Positions 2 through 10,440 of a DNA stretch of 64,000 bases are shown in pieces (within the stretch, counting starts at the first letter, position 1; each line of letters begins with the position of its first letter). The notes beneath the pieces are model-generated. The model was not told the origin of the DNA and searched no databases. It worked only from the letters and a program-made list of their open reading frames with translations. This DNA is from Parabacteroides distasonis ATCC 8503. Lineage in GTDB: Bacteria; Bacteroidota; Bacteroidia; Bacteroidales; Tannerellaceae. A program made the position numbers and the translations under genes. The stretch covers positions 2,261,501 to 2,325,500 of the forward strand of contig NC_009615.1 of NCBI RefSeq assembly GCF_000012845.1, in the 5' to 3' direction.

Positions 2-229
2 CTGTTCAAGTCTGTTTATCTCCAACTTTATATACATTGCCGAAAATTTATCCCCGCCCCGGAAGACGCAAAAGACATCTTACAAAACGTCTTCCTCCGC
101 TTTTGGGAAAAGCGTGAGAACATCGATATTCACACGTCTTTAAACGCTTATTTATACAGGGCTATACAGAACGAATGCCTCAATTACCTTCGTTCTACCG
201 GAACTCCCTATCTGATTAGCCATAATTAA
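2..229 (+). CDS. ECF sigma factor, N-terminal half (region 2), truncated by DNA inversion; 5' end outside window
   Basis: Frame 2 is open from the left edge to TAA at 227-229 (75 residues visible). It reads LFKSVYLQLYIHC...APEDAKDILQNVFLRFWEKRE...LNAYLYRAIQNECLNYLRSTGT, a typical sigma-70 region 2 of Bacteroidetes FecI-like ECF factors. After RSTGT it continues only with PYLISHN and stops, so region 4 is missing. The missing half lies on the opposite strand at 1299-1600 and starts with the same STGT codons inside a 13-bp inverted repeat. In this orientation the product would lack the -35-binding helix-turn-helix and should be inactive. Its start codon is upstream of the window. The sigma identity is clear from the motif; the split is seen directly; the inversion as cause is inference. 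Confidence 0.85.
   Translation: MFKSVYLQLYIHCRKFIPAPEDAKDILQNVFLRFWEKRENIDIHTSLNAYLYRAIQNECLNYLRSTGTPYLISHN
192..204 (+). repeat. Left inverted repeat of the invertible segment
   Basis: GTTCTACCGGAAC, lying inside the sigma reading frame as part of the codons for RSTGT. Its outer four bases on each side (GTTC/GAAC) are themselves palindromic around a 5-bp asymmetric core, the sort of layout used as a site-specific recombination core. The reverse complement occurs at 1588-1600, and I saw no third copy in the window. Confidence 0.9.
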
Positions 230-346
230 TAAATTTAAGATTAATAATAAGATCTAACAATGTTACGTTTTTTATCCGTATTACACTAAAAATCATCCAT
301 TTCTCATAAGCAAGACTGTTTTTAAGATTAATAATTCAATGATTTA
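230..346. promoter_or_regulatory. AT-rich stretch inside the invertible segment; would be the susC leader in the ON state
   Basis: No gene is visible here. When the segment is reversed, this stretch falls between fecR and susC and ends at an ATG (complement of 221-223) in frame with susC. It is therefore the likely place for the promoter recognised by the cognate ECF sigma factor. No consensus can be called from one example. Confidence 0.45.
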
Positions 347-1216
347 TTATTTGATTACTATAGTATCTTTCAGTATTTGATAGCGAATACCCGTATTCGT
401 CTTTATCACATTGAGAATCTCCGATAAATCTTCGTTGTTACGGAAACTACCGCTAAACCTTAATTTTTTTATCCCTTGATTTTCATAACGAAATACAACG
501 TTATAGTTCCTTTCCAACAACTTTGTTATATCTTGCAGATACATCATTTTAAAAGACAAGAAACCTCCTCTCCATTGAGCGAATAGTTTCTTATCGTAAG
601 GTACTACTTCTATCTTATTTCTACTTTTATCATAAACCGCCACTTGGTTAGGCTCAAGTAAGACCTCTTGTTTAGTCAACGTAGGTTGTACGGCGACCTT
701 GCCATTGAACAAGGTTGTGGTTAGTTGCGAGTCTTCCATATAAGCGGAAACATTAAAGGCCGTACCAATCGCTTTCACATCAATACCGTTTGCCTTTACA
801 ACAAATGGTAAGTCTTTATTCTTTGCGACTTCAAAATAAGCTTCTCCATCCAAATAAATGCTACGATTGGAATGGCCGTAGTTCTCCGCATATTCTAGAG
901 TTGTACAAGAGTTAAGCCAAACCCTCGTACCATCCGGTAATTGCAAATAGCTCTTCTCTCCTTTGCTCGTTACTAATTTATAATTTCCAACTGTCGATAA
1001 GTTCTCTTGATTCGTAAGATACAACGTTGATAGTGAAACACCTATGCCCAAAACCACGGCAGCGGCATATTTCATGTATTGAAGGAATAGCCTTCTTGTT
1101 TTCATTTTGGAAATAGTTTTTTTCTCTATGGATGAAAACAAACGCTCCCACTCCCTATCAACATCTACTTCGTCTTTGAGACTTTCCGCAATTATATTTT
1201 TTATATATTCTTTCAT
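347..1216 (-). CDS. FecR-family anti-sigma factor
   Basis: A 289-residue inner-membrane anti-sigma factor. A short cytoplasmic N-terminus (about 1-45) that would bind the sigma factor is followed by one membrane segment near 47-67 (YAAAVVLGIGVSLSTLYL) and a periplasmic FecR domain (about 85-185; DGTRVWLNSCTTLEY, GEAYFEVAKN, GTAFNVSAY). The C-terminal domain of about 70 residues (LLERNYNVVFRYEN, LSEILNVIKTNTGIRYQI) is the STN-like fold that contacts the receptor's N-terminal signalling domain. It lies 82 bases downstream of the sigma 3' half on the same strand, and both lie inside the invertible segment. In the present orientation they point away from susC and the sigma gene lacks its 5' half, so fecR probably has no normal promoter. 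Confidence 0.93.
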   Translation of the reverse strand: MKEYIKNIIAESLKDEVDVDREWERLFSSIEKKTISKMKTRRLFLQYMKYAAAVVLGIGVSLSTLYLTNQENLSTVGNYKLVTSKGEKSYLQLPDGTRVWLNSCTTLEYAENYGHSNRSIYLDGEAYFEVAKNKDLPFVVKANGIDVKAIGTAFNVSAYMEDSQLTTTLFNGKVAVQPTLTKQEVLLEPNQVAVYDKSRNKIEVVPYDKKLFAQWRGGFLSFKMMYLQDITKLLERNYNVVFRYENQGIKKLRFSGSFRNNEDLSEILNVIKTNTGIRYQILKDTIVIK

Positions 1217-1298
1217 TGTTTTTTCTCGATTCTATATGTATGACACTTCAAAACGATGTGCTACTTACAAGATTGATAGATTTTTGTATTATATTTTT

Positions 1299-1600
1299 TC
1301 AAGAAACCAGATAATCTTTCAATCTACTTTTCAAAATCTTAAGGGCTCTATATATCTGTGTTTCCACTGTACGGACGGAGATATCCAATTTATCTGCGAT
1401 CTCTTGGTTCTTGAGTCCATTTATACGACTCAATTTAAAAATGGATTTACATTGATCTGGTAATTCCTCTATCGTATTTTCCGTGATTCGTTCTATTTCA
1501 AAAATACTAAGTATCGAATAAGGATCATTATCTTCCACAGCCTCTTGTTTATCCATCTCTGATATTTCATATCGGGGAATGTCAATGGTTCCGGTAGAAC
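1299..1600 (-). CDS. ECF sigma factor, C-terminal half (region 4), detached by DNA inversion
   Basis: The reading frame is open on the - strand back to a stop at 1623-1625. From the inverted repeat on it reads STGTIDIPRYEISEMDKQE...DPYSIL, then a full sigma region 4: ELPDQCKSIFKLSRINGLKNQ followed by EIADKLDISVRTVETQIYRAL and KDYLVS. The first ATG (1554-1556) would give only 85 residues with no region 2. Fused through STGT to the fragment at 2-204 it makes a normal-looking ECF sigma factor with no lost or repeated codons. It therefore reads as half of one gene separated by inversion rather than an independent gene or decayed copy. Confidence 0.87.
1588..1600 (-). repeat. Right inverted repeat of the invertible segment
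   Basis: GTTCCGGTAGAAC on +, the exact reverse complement of 192-204. It lies immediately left of the present 5' end of the susC reading frame. The codons for GSSGRTN of ON-state SusC pass through it. Confidence 0.9.
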
Positions 1601-1637
1601 TAATTACAGAACCCTGAAAAAATCATTATTTTTAGGT

Positions 1638-4600
1638 TTGTGCTTAACCTTTTTCCAGCCGTACACAGTAGCGGCATCAGCACAAATTATATCCTTAAAT
1701 ATCACAAAAGGAACTATCACTGAAGTTTTTAAGGCGATTGAAGACCAAAGTGAATATAAATTCTTTTATAATGACAATCAAATCAATTTGAATAAACGGG
1801 TTGATGTCAATATCCATGAAGAATCCATAGAACAAGTATTAAACAATGTCTTTAGAGGTACGGATATTACGTATAAGATCGTCAAGAATCACGTAGTACT
1901 TACCAACAAGACCATGAAAGATACGGAGTTGCCATCCACCAACCAAAATCGCAAACGGCTAACCGGACAAGTAGTAGGACAAGATGGGGAGCCTCTGATC
2001 GGAGTAAACGTTGTAGTGAAAGGTACTACAATCGGATCTATGACCGATATGGACGGAAACTACATTCTAGAGAATGTTCCCTCCAATGCTACCGTTGAAT
2101 TCTCGTACATCGGCTATCTCCAACAAAGTATCAACGTAGGCAATAAAAGTAACCTCAACGTCACTTTAGCGGAAGACACTCAAAAGTTGGATGAGGTAGT
2201 AGTTGTTGGTTACGGTTCCTTCAAGAAAAGAGATTTAACCGGAGCTGTTTCTCAAGTAAAAGGAGACGAGATCTCGAACCTACCGCTTCGCAGCGCCGCC
2301 GACGCCTTGCAAGGAAAAGCAGCCGGTGTAACCATAACATCTAGTTCCGGTAGCCCAGGTTCACTCGGTAATGTCCGTATCCGTGGTGTCGGTACTATCA
2401 ATAATAATGATCCGTTGTATGTAGTAGATGGTCTACCTCAAGGTGATATCGGTTGGTTAAATGCCCGTGATATCGAGAGCATAGAGGTATTGAAAGACGC
2501 TTCCGCACAAGCGATCTATGGTGCCCGTGCTGCCAACGGTGTGATCCTAGTATCCACAAAGCGAGGAGCTTCCGGCGAGAGTTACCGAAGCAACATCGAG
2601 TTTGATATGAACATTGGTTTCCAAGATGTAGTGAAAACGTATGACATGCTAGACGCCGAAGGTTTCATGGAATATAAGAACCGGGCTTACGCCGCATCCG
2701 GGAAAGCCTTGATCGATGATTTCGCCACACCAGAGAAGCGAGAGCAGATCCTTACTTTCCTAGGGAAAAACGGAGGACGATCCGGTACGGATTGGTGGAA
2801 AGAGAGCACCCGTAAACCCAAGGAAGCTATCAGTCAGAATTACAACCTAGCTTTCTCCGGAGGTATGAAGAAACTCAGATACCGTGCTAGCTTTGGCTAT
2901 ATGGATCAACAAGGAATCTTGAAAGGTTCCGACTATGAACGCCTCTCCGGTCGGTTGAACGTAGACTCTGAGGTAACCAAGTGGTTGAACCTCTCCGCAA
3001 ATGTGAACGTCACGTACGAATCCAGGCGCAACCTAGATGAGAATAACTCTTACACAGCAACCGTGTTCAGTACCCTTGCGGCAGACCCAATCACTCCGGT
3101 ATATCGCGACAACCTAGTGGATATCCCAGATTTCTTGCAAAACCGAATTATGGGTGGTTATGAGCCGACCAATCCTTGGTCTCGCTATACAGGCGTAATT
3201 TACTCAAACAAACCGAACACGGTTGGACAGGTAGACCGCTCCGCATTAAATCAATGGCACGGGATCGCCACGAAAAGTAATATCTCCGGCGAAGTCAAGT
3301 TGTTACCCTTCTTGACCTTCAAATCCAGTATCGCTCTTGACTTAGTCCGTAACCAAAGCGACTCTTTCCGTCCTTCTTACTATCTGGATGGAGATGAGTA
3401 CTCCACTTATGCGGGCGCCAGTCGGAGCGTAGCGAATAAAGATTACTGGGTATTCGACAATTACCTAACTTACAATCAAAAATTCGACAAACATGCGGTA
3501 ACAGCCATGGTCGGTACCTCCGCAGAGAAAGAGCGCTACGAGGAGATCTACGCCTATAAAGAAGGACAGGTCAACAACAACCCGAACCAGCAGATCATCA
3601 ACGCCGGTACCATGAATCCCGCCGCATCAGGCTACTACGCCACGAGTACGCTGAATTCTTATTTCGGTCGTGTATTTTATTCCTTTGACAACCGTTATAT
3701 GATCACAGCCAATATCCGTTGGGATGGATCCTCTAAATTTGCGGATGGTAATCGCTGGGGTTACTTCCCCTCCGTATCCGCCGGTTGGAATTTCTCGGAA
3801 GAGAGCTTCATGAAGAACCTTGAGTGGCTGTCACAAGGTAAGTTAAGAGCAGCTTGGGGTGAGATCGGGAACCAGACTATCTCCTCCGGAGCCTATATGA
3901 ATACGTTCGGAAATGGTAGCTACTACCTCTTCGGTAATCCGTATCAGACGAACTTGTATGCCGGACGTACGCAGGTGGGTAATCCGGATCTGAAATGGGA
4001 GACTACTCGCCAACTGGACTTCGGATTGGATTTGGCCTTTTTCCAAGGTTCCTTGAGAGCAACCTTCGACTACTTTGACCGTCAGACAAGTGATATGTTG
4101 GTGCAAGTACCCGTGCCCAGTTCACTAGGATTCCCCAACACGCCGTGGATGAATGCCGGTAGCGTAAGCAATAAAGGTTTTGAAGTAACGCTCGGATACG
4201 ACGGTAAGATCGGGAACGACTTCCAATATCATATCAACGGAAACGTATCCACCTATAAAAATAAGGTAAAAAGCCTAGGTAGTGGAGCGAATATTCCGGG
4301 TAAAGGCATCCATCTAGGATACTTCTCCTATACGATGACAGAGCCAGGACAACCGATCGGTTATTTCTACGGATATAAAACCGATGGTGTCTTCCAGACC
4401 CAAGAAGAGATCGACAACTACAAGAACAACGGTCAAATGGTAATGCCAAACGCAAAGCCGGGCGACTTAAAGTTCCAAGATTTGAACAAAGATGGTAAAC
4501 TAGACGACGAAGACCGCACGATGACAGGAAATCCTCATCCAGACTTCACCTTTGGTTTGACCTTAGGCGCAGAATGGAAAGGATTCGACATCTCCGCCTT

Positions 4601-5039
4601 CTTCCAAGGATCAGTCGGCAATGACATCTTAAACATATTGAAATATGACATCTATTCAGGTACCGGTTGGTACAATGCTCCGAAGGATATATTAACAACC
4701 TACTGGAACGGACCGGGTAGTACAAACGAGAACTTCGCAATCGATGCGGATAGCCGCATGAACTTGGAGATGTCCGATTGGTATGTGGAAAATGGTTCTT
4801 ATGTTCGCTTGAAGAACCTGACAATCGGTTATACGCTTCCGTCCGAATGGACTAAGAAGATCACGATCAACAACCTTCGTTTCTTTGTTGCCGCACAGAA
4901 CTTATTCACGATCACCGGTTATTCCGGACTAGATCCTGAGATCGGAGAGATCAATAACTCGCCTCTTTACAAAGGCTGTGATATGGGATTCTATCCGCAA
5001 CCGCGTACATTCATGTTCGGTCTTAGTTTGAAATTATAA
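1638..5039 (+). CDS. SusC/RagA-family TonB-dependent outer-membrane receptor with STN domain; start codon removed by inversion
   Basis: A TonB-dependent transporter taking up an unknown ligand, probably a glycan, together with the SusD protein that follows. From the TTG at 1638 it has 1133 residues: the end of a signal peptide (to about 16), STN signalling domain (about 17-90), carboxypeptidase-regulatory-like domain (about 107-180), TonB box-like DEVVVVGYG (185-193), plug (about 198-310) and barrel ending in FMFGLSLKL. The frame is open back to 1563 without ATG and encodes LKKSLFLG just before the TTG, so the signal peptide's basic end precedes any usable start. Reversing 192-1600 supplies an ATG 23 codons upstream (1156 residues). 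The STN domain implies signalling to FecR. TTG at 1638 is a formal start only. Confidence 0.9.
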   Translation: MCLTFFQPYTVAASAQIISLNITKGTITEVFKAIEDQSEYKFFYNDNQINLNKRVDVNIHEESIEQVLNNVFRGTDITYKIVKNHVVLTNKTMKDTELPSTNQNRKRLTGQVVGQDGEPLIGVNVVVKGTTIGSMTDMDGNYILENVPSNATVEFSYIGYLQQSINVGNKSNLNVTLAEDTQKLDEVVVVGYGSFKKRDLTGAVSQVKGDEISNLPLRSAADALQGKAAGVTITSSSGSPGSLGNVRIRGVGTINNNDPLYVVDGLPQGDIGWLNARDIESIEVLKDASAQAIYGARAANGVILVSTKRGASGESYRSNIEFDMNIGFQDVVKTYDMLDAEGFMEYKNRAYAASGKALIDDFATPEKREQILTFLGKNGGRSGTDWWKESTRKPKEAISQNYNLAFSGGMKKLRYRASFGYMDQQGILKGSDYERLSGRLNVDSEVTKWLNLSANVNVTYESRRNLDENNSYTATVFSTLAADPITPVYRDNLVDIPDFLQNRIMGGYEPTNPWSRYTGVIYSNKPNTVGQVDRSALNQWHGIATKSNISGEVKLLPFLTFKSSIALDLVRNQSDSFRPSYYLDGDEYSTYAGASRSVANKDYWVFDNYLTYNQKFDKHAVTAMVGTSAEKERYEEIYAYKEGQVNNNPNQQIINAGTMNPAASGYYATSTLNSYFGRVFYSFDNRYMITANIRWDGSSKFADGNRWGYFPSVSAGWNFSEESFMKNLEWLSQGKLRAAWGEIGNQTISSGAYMNTFGNGSYYLFGNPYQTNLYAGRTQVGNPDLKWETTRQLDFGLDLAFFQGSLRATFDYFDRQTSDMLVQVPVPSSLGFPNTPWMNAGSVSNKGFEVTLGYDGKIGNDFQYHINGNVSTYKNKVKSLGSGANIPGKGIHLGYFSYTMTEPGQPIGYFYGYKTDGVFQTQEEIDNYKNNGQMVMPNAKPGDLKFQDLNKDGKLDDEDRTMTGNPHPDFTFGLTLGAEWKGFDISAFFQGSVGNDILNILKYDIYSGTGWYNAPKDILTTYWNGPGSTNENFAIDADSRMNLEMSDWYVENGSYVRLKNLTIGYTLPSEWTKKITINNLRFFVAAQNLFTITGYSGLDPEIGEINNSPLYKGCDMGFYPQPRTFMFGLSLKL

Positions 5040-5056
5040 TCTTAAAATGAATTATT

Positions 5057-6703
5057 ATGAAATCTATAGTTAACATAGGGAAATTACTTGTATCGATCGC
5101 ATGCGTCGGTGCCCTTACGACAAGCTGTAACAGCGACTTTCTAGACCGCCCGCCATTGGGAACATTGGATGAGGTAACTTATCTGAGTACCAAGGATGCC
5201 GGCTACAAACTTTTGGTCAATTGCTATCAGCCCTTACAAGATAGCTGGAACTATCAGGACATGAAATTTGTCTTGGGAGATCAATTGAGCGACGACTGCT
5301 CCAAAGGCGGCTCTGATGCAGGAGACCGCGTTCGTATCACGGAAATCGCCCGCGGGACACCAATGGCGACTAATCAAGTCTTGTCCGACCTTTGGACTCA
5401 TCGCTACCAAACAGCGATCTCAGCCTGCAACGTATTCCTGTCGCTAATCACACCTGAATCAGAATTGATCGATGATGCCGGAGGCTTGGTCAGCACAGAA
5501 ACCAAACAGCGATGGATCGCAGAGGCTCAATTCATGCGTGCGTTCTATTACTACGACCTAGCTACAATCTTCCAGAATATTCCACTAATTGACAAGCCCA
5601 TGGAAGTCGTCGACAAAAGTACGATCACGAAATCCAGCAAAGAGGAGGTCATGAACTTTATCCTGAAAGACCTGAACACCGCAATCGCCGAACCTAATCT
5701 ACCTAATGCAAAAAGCCTTCCGACCAGCGAGATTGGGCGAATCACCAAAGAGGCCGCCATGGCTTTCCGTGCTAGGGTATTGATGTTCTACGGCAACTAC
5801 GGAGAGGCTCTGAAAGACCTGAAGACAGTTGTCGAATCCGGAAGCTATGAATTAGTAGATGACTACGAGAAGCTATTCAATAACGCCACAGAGGGCTATA
5901 TGTCAAAAGAGTCCGTCTTCATCACCCTGCGCTCTTACATTCCTAGCTACACTAGCGGTAGCGTTTGTCCACAAATGAATGTCGGTCGCGGTATTGCCGG
6001 CGGATGGGGCGGCGAGTGTCCGACGAAGGATTTGGTAGACGAGTATGAGGTAGGCGATCCACGCTTGGTACACACGGTATTGTCATCCGGCGATATATTC
6101 GTCAAGAACGATGGTTCCGAAGAGGTACACGACTATTCCGGCTACGACAATTTCCCACAGCAACACAGCCGTAAGCAGTATCCAGACTTCTCCAGACGGC
6201 CACTAAACGATTTATTGAACACGGATTGGACCCACTATCACATCCGCTATGCCGATGTATTGCTGATGTACGCTGAATGCCTGATCGAGACGGATGGCGA
6301 CAAACAACTAGCGGCCGACCTGATCAACCAAGTACGTTATCGTGCCTTCGTGACAACCTCTTTGACAGATAGCTACGCTAAATACCGTAAGTTCAACCTC
6401 AAGGAGAGCGATCGAGTGACCGAGGATACTTTCAACGCTAAGTATAAAGTGAAAGCTTCCGATGATCTGCGTGCCGCCGTTCGCCACGAACGCCGTATCG
6501 AACTTGCAGGCGAGGGATTACGCTTCTACGACTTAATTCGCTGGGGCACCTTCGTATCTACAATGCAGAAATTCGGCAAGACTGATGAGGGCAAGTATTC
6601 CGGTGCCGGGACACTCGTCACCGATAAGACATACCCCTACCCGATTCCACAAAGCGAGATCGACTATGTAGGAGGCGCATTAACACAGAACGATAATTAT
6701 TAA
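5057..6703 (+). CDS. SusD/RagB-family surface glycan-binding lipoprotein
   Basis: A 548-residue outer-membrane lipoprotein that caps the SusC barrel and binds ligand. The signal peptide ends in a lipobox with cysteine at residue 24 (ALTTSC), followed by the typical NSDFLDRPPLG start. The N-terminal TPR-like SusD domain includes AEAQFMRAFYYYDLATIF near 155-172, and the C-terminal RagB domain includes RYADVLLMYAEC and VRHERRIELAGEGLRFYDLIRW. It ends PYPIPQSEIDYVGGALTQN, standard for the family. It starts 17 bases after susC and is clearly co-transcribed, so its expression should follow the state of the upstream switch. No glycoside hydrolase accompanies it, so the substrate cannot be named. Confidence 0.94.
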   Translation: MKSIVNIGKLLVSIACVGALTTSCNSDFLDRPPLGTLDEVTYLSTKDAGYKLLVNCYQPLQDSWNYQDMKFVLGDQLSDDCSKGGSDAGDRVRITEIARGTPMATNQVLSDLWTHRYQTAISACNVFLSLITPESELIDDAGGLVSTETKQRWIAEAQFMRAFYYYDLATIFQNIPLIDKPMEVVDKSTITKSSKEEVMNFILKDLNTAIAEPNLPNAKSLPTSEIGRITKEAAMAFRARVLMFYGNYGEALKDLKTVVESGSYELVDDYEKLFNNATEGYMSKESVFITLRSYIPSYTSGSVCPQMNVGRGIAGGWGGECPTKDLVDEYEVGDPRLVHTVLSSGDIFVKNDGSEEVHDYSGYDNFPQQHSRKQYPDFSRRPLNDLLNTDWTHYHIRYADVLLMYAECLIETDGDKQLAADLINQVRYRAFVTTSLTDSYAKYRKFNLKESDRVTEDTFNAKYKVKASDDLRAAVRHERRIELAGEGLRFYDLIRWGTFVSTMQKFGKTDEGKYSGAGTLVTDKTYPYPIPQSEIDYVGGALTQNDNY

Positions 6704-6789: not shown

Positions 6790-7530
6790 ATGAAACGAAT
6801 CTTATTTCTCCTAACCATCGCCCTCCTAAATTTGGGAAGTGGCCTATGCAAGACACGACAATCGTTAAGAATCATGAGCTACAACATCCGCATCGGGATC
6901 GGTATGGACCAACAGACCAATTTGAAGCGAATCGCTGAAGTGATCAACAAGATCCAGCCGGACTATGTCGGGCTACAAGAGGTGGACAGTGTATGCGAAC
7001 GCTCTGGATGGATCAACCAATATGCAGAATTAGCACGGTTGACCGGCATGTATCCAATCTTCGCACCTGCCACAGAACGTTCTAAGGGATTATACGGAAT
7101 CGCCGCACTCTCCCGCAAAAAACCTCGTAGCTACCAATACATACCTCTGCCGGGAAAGGAAGAGCCACGTACCTTCCTTTGTCTCGAATATCCGAACTAT
7201 ACCTTGTGTAACACACATTTCTCGCTCGACCCAGACTCTCGCCTGGCCTCTATACGACTCATCAATGAGACGATGAAAAGCGAAAACAAACCAATCCTGA
7301 TCACCGGAGACTTCAACATGGAGCCAGACTCTAAGGAATTCAAGGCGATGAAACAAACGTGGAGGCTCTTATCCGACCCTACGTTAGAGACCTACCCCTC
7401 GGATCATCCCCGTTTGCGTTTAGATTATATCTTCGGCGACCTAAGGCATGAATTTAGGATTATCAACGACCAAGTGATCGATATCCAGTCGTCCGATCAC
7501 CTGCCGATCTATATAGACGTGCTATTTTAA
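6790..7530 (+). CDS. Endonuclease/exonuclease/phosphatase-family protein, exported
   Basis: A 246-residue metal-dependent phosphodiesterase or phosphatase of the DNase I-like EEP fold. A signal peptide covers about 1-20 (RILFLLTIALLNLGSGLC). The family motifs appear in order: MSYNIR (metal-binding Asn), GLQEVD (catalytic Glu), NTHFS, ITGDFNMEPDS (catalytic Asp/Asn), LDYIF, and SSDHLPI (terminal Asp-His pair). Exported Bacteroidetes members probably act on sugar phosphates, phospholipids or nucleic acids; the substrate cannot be told here. It lies behind the susD terminator, so it may have its own promoter or depend on read-through. Confidence 0.88.
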   Translation: MKRILFLLTIALLNLGSGLCKTRQSLRIMSYNIRIGIGMDQQTNLKRIAEVINKIQPDYVGLQEVDSVCERSGWINQYAELARLTGMYPIFAPATERSKGLYGIAALSRKKPRSYQYIPLPGKEEPRTFLCLEYPNYTLCNTHFSLDPDSRLASIRLINETMKSENKPILITGDFNMEPDSKEFKAMKQTWRLLSDPTLETYPSDHPRLRLDYIFGDLRHEFRIINDQVIDIQSSDHLPIYIDVLF

Positions 7531-7690: not shown

Positions 7691-8758
7691 ATGAAGAATA
7701 TAATCATTATAGCTAGTTTACTCCTCGGGATGCCGCTTATGGCACAAACCAAGGTGGTAAAAAAGAACGCCGTAAAAGCCAATAATTTCGGAATCACCTA
7801 CTCGTTGCCCAAGACCTCGCTAGTCGTAGACGCCGAAGTGACGAAAGTAACTTGCAAAGCCGGGCCTTACTATCAATATGCAGAGAAGTATCTAGGCGTA
7901 AAAGATGCAGTCACGGAAGATAAGATTTATTTCGATCTCGGAAAAATCAGTCTGATCAACCGGGGATTACCCGATGCGGATAATACCTATATCGTAGAAT
8001 TCAAGCAAGGTACGGTCGCCCCTTACGCTTATCTTACCGAAGATGGATTATTATGCTCGATAAACGCAGAATATACACCAGTTGAATCCGAGCTAGATGC
8101 CGCAAAGAAAAATAAAGGCTCCCAACAAAAAGTGACAGACACTTCCGTTTTCTCGGAGGAATTACTAATGGCAGGCTCCACCGCCAAACAAGCGGAGGTG
8201 GCCGCTAAACAAATTTACCGTATCCGGGAAAGCCGTTTGAACATCTTGACCGGCGAGGCGGATAATTTACCCCCCGATGGTGAAGCCATGAAACTGGTGA
8301 TCCAGCAATTGGAGGAGCAAGAAAAAGCATTAACAAACCTATTCACCGGAATCTTGACCAAAGAAACCGAGCATTATGAGGTAAGTATCATCCCCCACGA
8401 CAACTTAGATAAAGAGGTATTGTTCCGTTTCTCCAAACAGCTAGGTATCGTAGACGCTGACGATTTGGGCGGTACCCCTGTCTATATGAACTTGAAAGCG
8501 ACAGAAAGAGCTCCGATCCTTGATGCCAAGGAAGCCGAGAAGAAAGACAAATCATTGAAAGGAATCGTCTACAATGTTCCGGGAAAAGCCAGCATAGAAA
8601 TACTAATGAACAAAAAAACGCTCTACAAAGGAGAGGCCCAAATTACTCAATTCGGAACACGGGAAGGATTAGCCCCTGTTATGTTTGAGGATAAGAAAGC
8701 CCCCGTCAAAGTTCTTTTCTATCCGGAAACCGGCGCCATAAAGCAAATTATTCAATAA
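7691..8758 (+). CDS. DUF4831-family exported protein
   Basis: A 355-residue protein with a signal peptide ending at about residue 19 (LLLGMPLMAQ). The segment YSLPKTSLVVDAEVTKV followed by AGPYYQYAEKYLG is characteristic of the Bacteroidetes DUF4831 family, whose function is unknown. A middle helical stretch (about 155-225, KQAEVAAKQIYRIRESRLNIL) and a C-terminal beta-rich part follow. It has its own promoter and is followed 26 bases later by a POT transporter in the same direction, so the two may be co-transcribed. Nothing in the sequence names a ligand or enzyme activity. Confidence 0.85.
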   Translation: MKNIIIIASLLLGMPLMAQTKVVKKNAVKANNFGITYSLPKTSLVVDAEVTKVTCKAGPYYQYAEKYLGVKDAVTEDKIYFDLGKISLINRGLPDADNTYIVEFKQGTVAPYAYLTEDGLLCSINAEYTPVESELDAAKKNKGSQQKVTDTSVFSEELLMAGSTAKQAEVAAKQIYRIRESRLNILTGEADNLPPDGEAMKLVIQQLEEQEKALTNLFTGILTKETEHYEVSIIPHDNLDKEVLFRFSKQLGIVDADDLGGTPVYMNLKATERAPILDAKEAEKKDKSLKGIVYNVPGKASIEILMNKKTLYKGEAQITQFGTREGLAPVMFEDKKAPVKVLFYPETGAIKQIIQ

Positions 8759-8784
8759 GTATAAACTAATATTATCTAAAACAC

Positions 8785-10440
8785 ATGTTACAAGGACAAC
8801 CTAAAGGTCTCTATGCCCTAGCACTCGCGAACACGGGCGAACGCTTCGGTTATTACACGATGCTTGCGATTTTCACATTATTCTTGCAAGCGAAATTCGG
8901 CTATACGGCCGCTGAGACATCAACGATTTTCGCTAGCTTCTTAGCGTTCGTGTATTTTATGCCATTGATTGGCGGTATGATGGCCGATAAGTTCGGTTAT
9001 GGAAAGATGGTTACCTCGGGTATCATCATCATGTTTGTCGGTTATCTTTTATTAGCCATCCCAACAGATGCCGCCTCGGGAAAAATCATGATGTTCGGCT
9101 CGCTAGCGCTAATCGCTTGCGGTACCGGATTATTTAAAGGTAACTTACAGGTGATGGTAGGTAATCTTTATGATGCCCCGGAATATAGAAGTAAACGTGA
9201 CCAAGCCTTTAGTTTGTTTTATATGGCGATCAATATCGGTGCCATGTACGCGCCTACGGCTGCCACTAAAATGACAGACTGGATGTTGGGTAAGTATAAC
9301 CTTTTCTACGAGTCACAAATTCCGGCACTCGCTCACCAATTCTTAAACGGAACCATCTCCGCAGAGAACAAAGAGGCACTCGCCGCTCTGCAAAGCGCAC
9401 AAGGTTTCACCGGCGATATGGCTACGTTCTGTTCCACGTATATCGAGAAGTTGTCTGAGGCATACAACTATGGATTCGGTGTGGCTTGTATCTCATTGAT
9501 CATATCGATGGCTATCTATATGGGATTCCGCTCTACCTTTAAGCATGCGGATGTCAATACCAAACAAGCAAAGGCTTCCCACGCTCCGCAAGAGGAATTG
9601 TCACCTGCCGAGACGAAACAACGTATCACCGCCTTGCTGCTGGTATTCGCCGTGGTATTGTTCTTCTGGATGGCTTTCCATCAAAATGGTCTGACAATGA
9701 CGTTCTTTGCTCGCGACTATACGGCCAACCAAGTGACCGGACTGGATCGTATCGGCTTTGATGTGATTAACTTAACATTATTGGTTATCGCCGTGTATGG
9801 AGGATTCGCTATCGCACAATCCACAACGAGCAAAGGCAAAACGATCGCCGGCATCGTGACCGTGGCCGCATTAGCCGCTCTAGGTATCAAATATATGGCT
9901 ATGCCGGAAACCGTAACGATCCTTCCGCAGACCTTCCAGCAATTTAACCCGTTCTTCGTGGTTGTATTGACTCCGGTATCGTTGGCGATCTTTGGTTATC
10001 TGGCTAATAAGAAGAAAGAGCCGTCCGCTCCTCGTAAGATCGGATTGGGTATGATGATCGCCGCTTGCGGTTTCTTGATCTTAGCGATCGGTTCTATGGG
10101 CTTGCCTACACCGGACGCTTTAGCGGCAGATAGCAAATTGCAGGTATTGGTTTCTCCGAACTGGTTGATCTCGACTTATCTGGTATTGACCTTCGCCGAA
10201 TTATTGCTTTCTCCGATGGGTATCTCTTTCGTATCCAAAGTGGCTCCTCCTAAATACAAAGGTATGATGATGGGTGGTTGGTTCGTGGCTACGGCTATCG
10301 GTAACTATCTGGTCGCTATCATCGGTTATTTGTGGGGAAGCATGCAATTATGGATGGTATGGAGCGTGTTGATCGTTCTTTGCTTACTGTCTGCGTTGTT
10401 CATGTTCTCTATCATGAAGAAACTAGATAAAGTGGCTTGA
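8785..10440 (+). CDS. POT/PTR-family proton-coupled oligopeptide transporter
   Basis: A 551-residue major-facilitator-type importer of di- and tripeptides driven by the proton gradient. Features seen are the N-terminal GERFGYYTMLAIFTLFL helix, GGMMADKFGYGK after helix 2 and the PTR signature FSLFYMAINIGAMYAP near 150-165, with about 12-14 membrane helices in all. The usual ExxER motif of helix 1 is reduced: NTGER has Asn where the first Glu normally sits, so proton coupling may differ from the model proteins. A cytoplasmic insertion (about 255-275, KQAKASHAPQEELSPAE) separates the two bundles. No peptidase is adjacent. Confidence 0.9.
   Translation: MLQGQPKGLYALALANTGERFGYYTMLAIFTLFLQAKFGYTAAETSTIFASFLAFVYFMPLIGGMMADKFGYGKMVTSGIIIMFVGYLLLAIPTDAASGKIMMFGSLALIACGTGLFKGNLQVMVGNLYDAPEYRSKRDQAFSLFYMAINIGAMYAPTAATKMTDWMLGKYNLFYESQIPALAHQFLNGTISAENKEALAALQSAQGFTGDMATFCSTYIEKLSEAYNYGFGVACISLIISMAIYMGFRSTFKHADVNTKQAKASHAPQEELSPAETKQRITALLLVFAVVLFFWMAFHQNGLTMTFFARDYTANQVTGLDRIGFDVINLTLLVIAVYGGFAIAQSTTSKGKTIAGIVTVAALAALGIKYMAMPETVTILPQTFQQFNPFFVVVLTPVSLAIFGYLANKKKEPSAPRKIGLGMMIAACGFLILAIGSMGLPTPDALAADSKLQVLVSPNWLISTYLVLTFAELLLSPMGISFVSKVAPPKYKGMMMGGWFVATAIGNYLVAIIGYLWGSMQLWMVWSVLIVLCLLSALFMFSIMKKLDKVA

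Follow-up and report, generated by a model that had tools for sequence, protein, structure and literature searches.

In the genome of Parabacteroides distasonis ATCC 8503 (G000, a single contig of 4,811,379 bases), the 64,000-nucleotide stretch that was analyzed, hereafter the window (G000:C1:2261501-2325500), begins within a module of genes for an extracytoplasmic function (ECF) sigma factor, FecR, SusC and SusD, in which a segment of 1,409 bp (192–1600) appears to be invertible. We call the orientation found here OFF and the opposite one ON; both terms denote states predicted from the reading frames. The N-terminal half of the sigma gene, with region 2 (PF04542, 3.2e-13), occupies 1–204 of the plus strand, and its ATG lies 62 bases upstream of the window at G000:C1:2261439 (L003:9939). 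The C-terminal half, consisting of the linker and region 4, is on the minus strand at 1299–1587 (PF08281, 3.7e-16, within 1299–1556). Behind it on the same strand lies fecR (347–1216; PF04773, 1.4e-16; PF16344, 8.8e-20), which encodes an anti-sigma factor or transducer of 289 amino acids (aa) and is intact whichever way round the segment stands. By frame positions, the susC leader (224–346, minus strand) runs from the fecR stop to the susC ATG inside the segment, where a stranded susC start is found (191–223, minus strand; CAT at 221–223) with the first codons MANQIGSSGR, an N-terminus conserved in relatives. The susC body (1601–5039, plus strand; TIGR04056, 7.8e-290) encodes the signal peptide core and the STN, plug and barrel domains and lacks an upstream ATG or GTG; its first start in the OFF frame is the TTG at 1638, with no ATG, GTG or TTG from there back to the upstream stop. 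On the same strand follow susD, encoding the partner lipoprotein (5057–6703; PF07980, 4.4e-37), and a gene of the endonuclease/exonuclease/phosphatase family that is a putative operon member (6790–7530; PF03372, 3.4e-21). The PF04773 and PF16344 matches on FecR and the STN domain (PF07660) on SusC place the group among ECF sigma/FecR/STN-SusC modules, and the full-length sigma homolog P0001 scored 162 bits against TIGR02985 (Bacteroidales ECF sigma factors; cut-off, 126.4).

Both breaks coincide with 13-bp inverted repeats. The left site (GTTCTACCGGAAC, 192–204, plus strand) encodes R85-S-T-G-T89 of the sigma factor in frame, where the region 2 match ends; a linker of about 35 residues follows, and in P0001, the region 2 match stops at residue 87 and region 4 starts at residue 125. 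The right site (1588–1600, minus strand) is the reverse complement of the left one and encodes S-S-G-R-T of SusC in the ON orientation. These arms are the only two exact copies of the sequence in the 4,811,379-base genome, and the reversed-pattern control gave none. A sequence-only reading of the window had described sigma region 2 on the plus strand, region 4 with fecR behind it on the minus strand, and identical 13-bp inverted repeats at the two junctions of a start-less susC and a split sigma gene. The Pfam matches and the identity of 192–204 and 1588–1600 confirm this description.

When the segment was inverted in silico, the two sigma halves were joined into one 184-aa frame through RSTGT, and susC acquired an ATG, exactly 23 codons further upstream, that gives a frame of 1156 aa (MANQIGSSGRTNYRTLKK...); both repairs had been predicted. 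The same inversion sets fecR, the 123-bp leader and the ATG with the first codons ahead of susC, the leader travelling with the segment, a point absent from the sequence-only reading. The restored lengths match those of relatives: a 184-aa sigma factor is found in G008 (P. gordonii) and a 1156-aa SusC in G008, G012 and G037, while SusC is 1155–1165 aa in G002, G003 and G023, and the sigma factor is 183–185 aa in the remaining ON-order genomes. The restored SusC begins with MANQIGSSGRT, and MANHxGSSG is kept in G002, G003, G008, G012, G037 and G023. Since the N-terminus is conserved in these six other genomes, the restored ATG is very probably the real susC start.

As a chance control, all 94 perfect inverted pairs of at least 11 bp within 5 kb of each other in the window were flipped in silico. 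A 13-bp repeat alone is not rare, because 6 of the 94 pairs were at least 13 bp long. An ATG frame was lengthened at both junctions by 4 of the 94 flips, and large frames were restored at both only by that of 192–1600, which extended frames from 96 to 184 aa and from 12 to 1156 aa; the next best flip gained 45 and 154 aa. The argument that two in-frame repairs by one operation are unlikely by chance was therefore upheld (1 of 94), and the control flips, taken with the gene order of relatives, lead us to reject a chance repeat. The proposed "double lock", in which one event disables both the activator and the receptor, likewise holds at the level of the coding frames.

To compare orientations, 38 Parabacteroides genomes were searched, with eight candidates scored per genome (seven in one). 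A DNA match was obtained in 19 of them and a syntenic locus, at the sensitivity of the search, in nine, two of which were OFF (G000 and G004) and seven in the ON order (G023, G035, G003, G002, G008, G037 and G012). G004 is 92% identical to the first 1.8 kb of the window. The site is present in the sigma gene of G000, G004, G023 and G035. The residues at the corresponding position of the other five are RSNRI (G003), RSSKI (G002), RTLKT (G008) and RTMKT (G037 and G012), and these genomes are presumably not switchable by a sigma/susC flip. The ON-order locus of G023 breaks at both arms and has a one-base spacer difference, with the same change on both arms. G035, a metagenome-assembled genome (MAG), has sigma and fecR in the ON order (L035, G035:C5:155000-169366, 8223-9821); it keeps the sigma arm, and the susC side is deleted, with susC and most of susD gone. 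The opposite orientation thus exists in related genomes, with both arms in G023 and with the sigma arm in G035, as well as in the full-length sigma clusters described below.

Between the two OFF genomes, the ratios of nonsynonymous to synonymous divergence (dN/dS; Nei–Gojobori method) were 0.051 for the sigma N-terminal half (from merely five synonymous changes and one other), 0.234 for the C-terminal half, 0.163 for fecR and 0.045 for susC (dS, 1.47), indicating that both sigma halves, fecR and susC are under purifying selection. The fecR ratio between G000 and G035, which has lost susC, was 0.347. The C-terminal sigma half is more diverged than the N-terminal half (dS, 0.42 versus 0.10), and therefore the segment and its flank have partly separate histories. 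In the best fecR tree, at least two changes of orientation are needed, and G000 (OFF) groups with G035 (ON) at 85/99. A second copy of the first 1.8 kb was not found in G000, where the only match was the locus itself (8 of 42 first-look candidates scored). This single match and the low dN/dS speak against a decayed duplicate, and the intact second sigma/susC copy that would have spoken for one was not encountered. Elsewhere in the genome, at G000:C1:3246329-3246496, an 85-aa frame has a sigma region 2 match and no region 4; no partner appears in its list of open reading frames, and no inversion was seen there.

Both forms of the sigma factor were recovered among 5.8 billion proteins grouped into clusters at 90% identity, whose member counts do not represent switch frequencies. 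OFF fragments formed clusters P0121 (236 members), P0122 (442), P0057 (11) and P0058 (4), and full-length sigma factors formed P0001 (142), P0004 (30), and P0002, P0003 and P0005 (1 each). Junctions among the full-length clusters include RSTGT, RSTRT and RSPGT, and RSTGT and RSPGT were found in both orientations. P0002, P0003 and P0005 match the OFF fragment of G004, P0057 and P0058 at every one of residues 1–89. P0001, which is 93% identical to the present allele, differs at 2 of these 89 residues from G004 and at 3 from G000, and P0127 (OFF) and P0008 (full-length), both with RSPGT, differ at 5. From the side of the C-terminal half, the OFF junction was seen in seven listed proteins (P0044-P0047 and P0049-P0051). 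The 30-member full-length cluster P0004 reads HSTGT, so that its sigma site is altered, and it is possibly an allele locked ON.

If the two spacers have to remain identical and susC has to retain SSGRT, the sigma side is limited to RS-[TPAS]-[GR]-T, stop variants aside. This was examined in 140 sigma-type proteins (the best 120 of 516 and all of a set of 31, overlapping), of which 66 had the anchor and were used and 74 were left out. All 14 OFF-junction fragments had a fitting pentapeptide, compared with 9 of the 48 longer proteins and none of 4 other truncated proteins. The 14 fragments are not independent: ten are RSTGT forms near P. distasonis, several looking like assembly variants, and the remaining four are P0127, P0070 and P0072 (RSPGT) and P0083 (RSPRT). 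The nine longer proteins include a chimera (P0027) and a deletion form (P0059), and those left out for want of an anchor include P0123, which has an OFF tail and a garbled junction, and five proteins that enter the OFF junction in another frame. Past the OFF junction, the residues ISH or ICH correspond to the reverse complement of the susC start ATGGC[TA]AAT. P0059 itself (174 aa, from Parabacteroides according to its source) has sigma region 2 fused directly to SusC across the site and looks like a deletion of the segment at the same point. P0148 and P0149 carry the ON start of SusC. The SusC N-terminus in databases was dropped as a marker of orientation, because the ON genome G023 is also represented from TTG (P0171); for the same reason, P0145 (2525 members) is uninformative on orientation. 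Searches of viral contigs for the exact junctions gave no match with either of two patterns.

The 13-bp arm belongs to a family of sites of the form GTTC-N5-GAAC, of which G000 has 119 (67 + 52). Eight pairs lie within 2 kb of each other. Four of these have identical spacers, and all four are inverted (none direct) and stand at susC-type genes according to Pfam; the mean for such close identical-spacer pairs in shuffled sets was 0.0146, and four were reached in 0 of 5000 shuffles. In G002 (78 sites), five inverted pairs and one direct pair were found within 2 kb (shuffled mean, 0.037; 0 of 5000), and six inverted and two direct within 15 kb. All eight loci with inverted pairs in G000 and G002 (four each) adjoin or lie in SusC-type TonB-receptor genes. 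The shuffle statistics cover these two genomes; in G003, G004 and G008, inspection covered some of the pairs (for G008, from among the matches listed), and G012, G023, G035 and G037 contributed counts only.

In G000, the pair at L079 (G000:C1:240000-250000; 4345 and 4579) spans 234 bp upstream of susC/susD and has a promoter-like motif, TATATTTGC, facing susC; a pair with the same spacer is found upstream of the matching susC of G004 (L083; 5040 and 5275). The 551-bp pair at L080 (G000:C1:580000-597000; 9447 and 9998) stands between two susC genes transcribed divergently; one of its arms has a promoter-like motif nearby, and the pair looks like a toggle between two receptors. At L081 (G000:C1:3014000-3028000; 6469 and 6963), 494 bp lie upstream of a minus-strand susC/susD, and as the motif faces away, the operon is possibly OFF in the genome as sequenced. 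The three motifs were read by eye. Another inverted pair of the same site type with identical spacers occurs 10 kb apart, at G000:C1:1902141 and 1912559. In P. gordonii (G008), identical-spacer pairs at L084, L091 and L093 are near genes for repeated proteins (MASNEPKKRS... and MALNEPKKRS...) and not near susC; at L093 this protein combines an HU-type DNA-binding domain with DUF4469. The site type may serve other loci in this species. Pairs of about 3 kb in G008 (L089) and G004 (L099) look like chance occurrences in unrelated genes and were set aside.

The genome of P. distasonis has 36 hits to the tyrosine recombinase family PF00589, 34 of them over the cut-off. One of these enzymes, a 392-aa protein with arm-binding, SAM-like and catalytic domains (L080:3391-4566; G000:C1:583390-584565), is encoded 4.9 kb from the L080 pair, and its orthologs in G004 (100%), G002 (79%) and G003 (78%) are 4.8–4.9 kb from a pair. 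By position, it is the best candidate for the enzyme. A serine recombinase is not favored; PF00239 has four hits in G000, the nearest about 110 kb away.

Taken as a whole, these data support the phase-switch interpretation of the sequence-only reading, and we consider it highly probable that the locus undergoes a reversible site-specific inversion that dismantles the sigma/FecR/SusC module, presumably with a tyrosine recombinase acting in trans. The enzyme would recognize a pair of GTTC-N5-GAAC sites whose 5-bp spacers are identical, one site lying within the sigma linker codons and the other within the first codons of susC. In FecR/STN systems, FecR relays a signal from the STN domain of the receptor to the sigma factor. 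With the segment ON, the sigma gene, fecR and the susC leader with its ATG are co-directional, and the STN domain of SusC would signal in this way to the sigma factor, which would activate susC/susD. In the OFF state, seen in this genome, the sigma gene is left as two fragments on opposite strands and susC lacks its leader, start codon and first codons, so that activator and receptor would be lost together and, if the inversion is reversible within one strain, would return together on re-inversion.

Several observations weigh against this proposal. The arm is short (13 bp), and the motif itself is not enriched in G000, where it has 67 and 52 sites and the reversed pattern has 98 and 109. The locus has no PF00589 gene within about 240 kb, and G035, an ON-order MAG that is 83% complete, is without a close ortholog of the candidate recombinase (best match, 34%). 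Among the proteins listed, there is no clean full-length sigma factor of exactly this allele, P0027, which has its exact predicted ON junction, being a chimeric assembled protein; the larger clusters are the OFF ones. The well-supported (starred) branches of the fecR tree force just one change of orientation, and the tree of the sigma N-terminal half is poorly resolved, with 28% of bootstrap trees needing one change. Some of these points would be expected if a single inversion in an ancestor of the OFF lineages had been frozen, leaving sigma and susC as decaying pseudogenes: the single-contig genome is OFF, the OFF clusters are the largest (236 and 442 versus 142 and 30), no recombinase gene is close by, and one change satisfies the well-supported branches. 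However, pseudogenes of this kind are difficult to reconcile with dN/dS values of 0.05–0.23 in both sigma halves, fecR and susC, or with frames and arms that are intact in both OFF genomes. Identical N-terminal halves are common to OFF and full-length forms, the OFF genome G000 groups with the ON genome G035 at 85/99, and OFF junctions occur with other pentapeptides (P0127, P0070, P0072 and P0083). We therefore regard a frozen inversion as very unlikely.

The shortness of the arms and the 94 perfect pairs of at least 11 bp within 5 kb in the window would also suit an illegitimate inversion between short chance repeats that recurs at a low rate with no recombinase of its own, selection only keeping the cells that are able to revert. 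Such an origin is scarcely likely, given that close identical-spacer pairs far exceed the shuffled expectation and stand at susC-type genes in all eight loci of G000 and G002, and that the spacer change of G023 is on both arms. Inverted repeats can also mislead assembly, though here they are only 13 bp long; the independent assembly of G004 (NZ_SRYM01000002.1) has the same orientation, with segment DNA 89.9% identical, and OFF-junction clusters have hundreds of members, so that an assembly error or mis-orientation in the finished genome is hardly credible.

The reversible inversion of the module may have arisen from an older exchange system. In G002 and G003, the site at the susC start pairs in inverted orientation with a site 14.5 and 9.9 kb away, respectively, lying at the 5′ end of another, second susC-like gene. 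In G002, this second gene encodes the SusC domains and has susD downstream, and the stretch in which its DNA matches the window susC begins exactly at the site. Two susC/susD cassettes with the same 5′ site face each other at L038 (G002:C2:1236000-1255999; 5335 and 19825), one of them behind sigma–fecR, an arrangement that is likely to represent cassette exchange; in G003 (L082), the second cassette is a remnant. Because the susC-start site pairs with a second cassette or its remnant in two other species, the comparison suggests that SusC/SusD exchange came first, and, on the likeliest reading, the sigma-side site is a partner that the P. distasonis group acquired later. At L087 (G002) and L096 (G003), a sigma gene and fecR are followed by a pair about 170–180 bp apart and then susC, a layout suggesting that the leader is another point at which modules of this kind are switched. 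An inverted pair with identical spacers at L085 of G002 (P. bouchesdurhonensis; G002:C2:1588000-1598000; 4930 and 5480) has its sites inside fecR and the STN region of susC. Flipping it would cut FecR short and remove the start of SusC; the pair was seen in the intact orientation only and may be a second, independent case of dismantling. With a little under an even chance in our estimation, the present locus represents a class of "module-dismantling" invertons, in which SusC/SusD-exchange sites gained partners inside sigma or anti-sigma genes, one flip would break both regulator and receptor, and the rule of spacer identity would dictate the linker peptide of the sigma factor (RS-T/P/A/S-G/R-T) while the susC arm keeps SSGRT.

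Inversions of several kinds are known in the Bacteroidales, and passages of a review cover those of promoters, of cassettes and within genes (PMC12632263). The present locus differs from each in its anatomy. Invertible promoters (invertons) have the same site type and neighborhood, as the three susC-upstream pairs at L079, L080 and L081 illustrate, whereas here the segment carries coding sequence, the ON sites lie in coding frames, and the OFF orientation breaks two genes. The contrast with simple promoter flipping drawn in the sequence-only reading accordingly stands for the anatomy but not for the sites, which are of the type found in the short intergenic pairs upstream of susC in the same genome. 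Because this site type is common to both, the inversion looks like a variant of the susC-upstream inverton system and not a separate one. In the intragenic inversions reported by Chanin et al. in 2024, both repeats are said to lie in one gene; coding sequence is altered by inversion there too, but here one repeat is in sigma and the other in susC, and two genes, one of them for a transcription activator, are joined or broken in one step. The locus is not a shufflon either, which would call for at least three compatible sites or an alternative cassette, since only two exact sites are present in the genome; a second cassette is found in G002 and its remnant in G003.

Tsr0667 is a tyrosine recombinase whose sites reportedly (2009) follow the consensus AGTYYYN4GDACT. 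The susC arm in the ON state fits this consensus; the sigma arm departs from it at its two outer bases when ON, and in the OFF state each arm fits it incompletely. In Bacteroides fragilis, passages of one source attribute to Tsr0667 the shufflon-type inversions of three SusC/SusD clusters and of nine further regions (PMC4747536), and those of another name it as the invertase of the SusC/SusD shufflons (PMC11852207). The present locus is alike in that inverted sites stand at susC genes and the receptor would be phase variable, and inverted sites of one shared type do occur at several susC loci in G000. The Tsr0667 system is described as exchanging promoters or susC/susD genes, whereas here the sites are in the coding frames of two genes and a sigma gene is split. 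Because the enzyme is only a candidate and the comparison uses a reported consensus, we do not claim membership of the Tsr0667 group proper and place the locus among the Bacteroidales susC inversion systems as a new variant.

The closest split sigma gene that we found is sigK with the skin element, which a large serine recombinase cuts out in the mother cell (PMC5025042). In sigK as, by our reading, in Parabacteroides, a sigma gene is interrupted by DNA and restored by site-specific recombination. However, the Parabacteroides segment is inverted and not inserted, contains the sigma C-terminal half, fecR and the susC leader but no recombinase, and could in principle be switched back. Among the matches listed (titles, abstracts and passages), no description of a sigma gene split by inversion was found; the supplements of inverton catalogues may list the locus. 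Passages of PMC5903667 report numerous inversion sites in P. distasonis without naming the loci, those of PMC13114119 concern other sigma factors and an invertible polysaccharide promoter, and a term search of the main text of PMC11892184 gave no mention of distasonis, sigma or SusC.

If our reading is correct, the inversion is an inherited on/off switch in which the coding sequences of a transcription activator and of the adjoining receptor are altered simultaneously. OFF cells could then hardly leak receptor, which could matter, as a general possibility, if SusC/SusD are costly or serve as phage docking points. The locus indicates that a recombination site can be written into, and kept in, two reading frames, and it suggests that annotation may call such genes broken when they are merely flipped.

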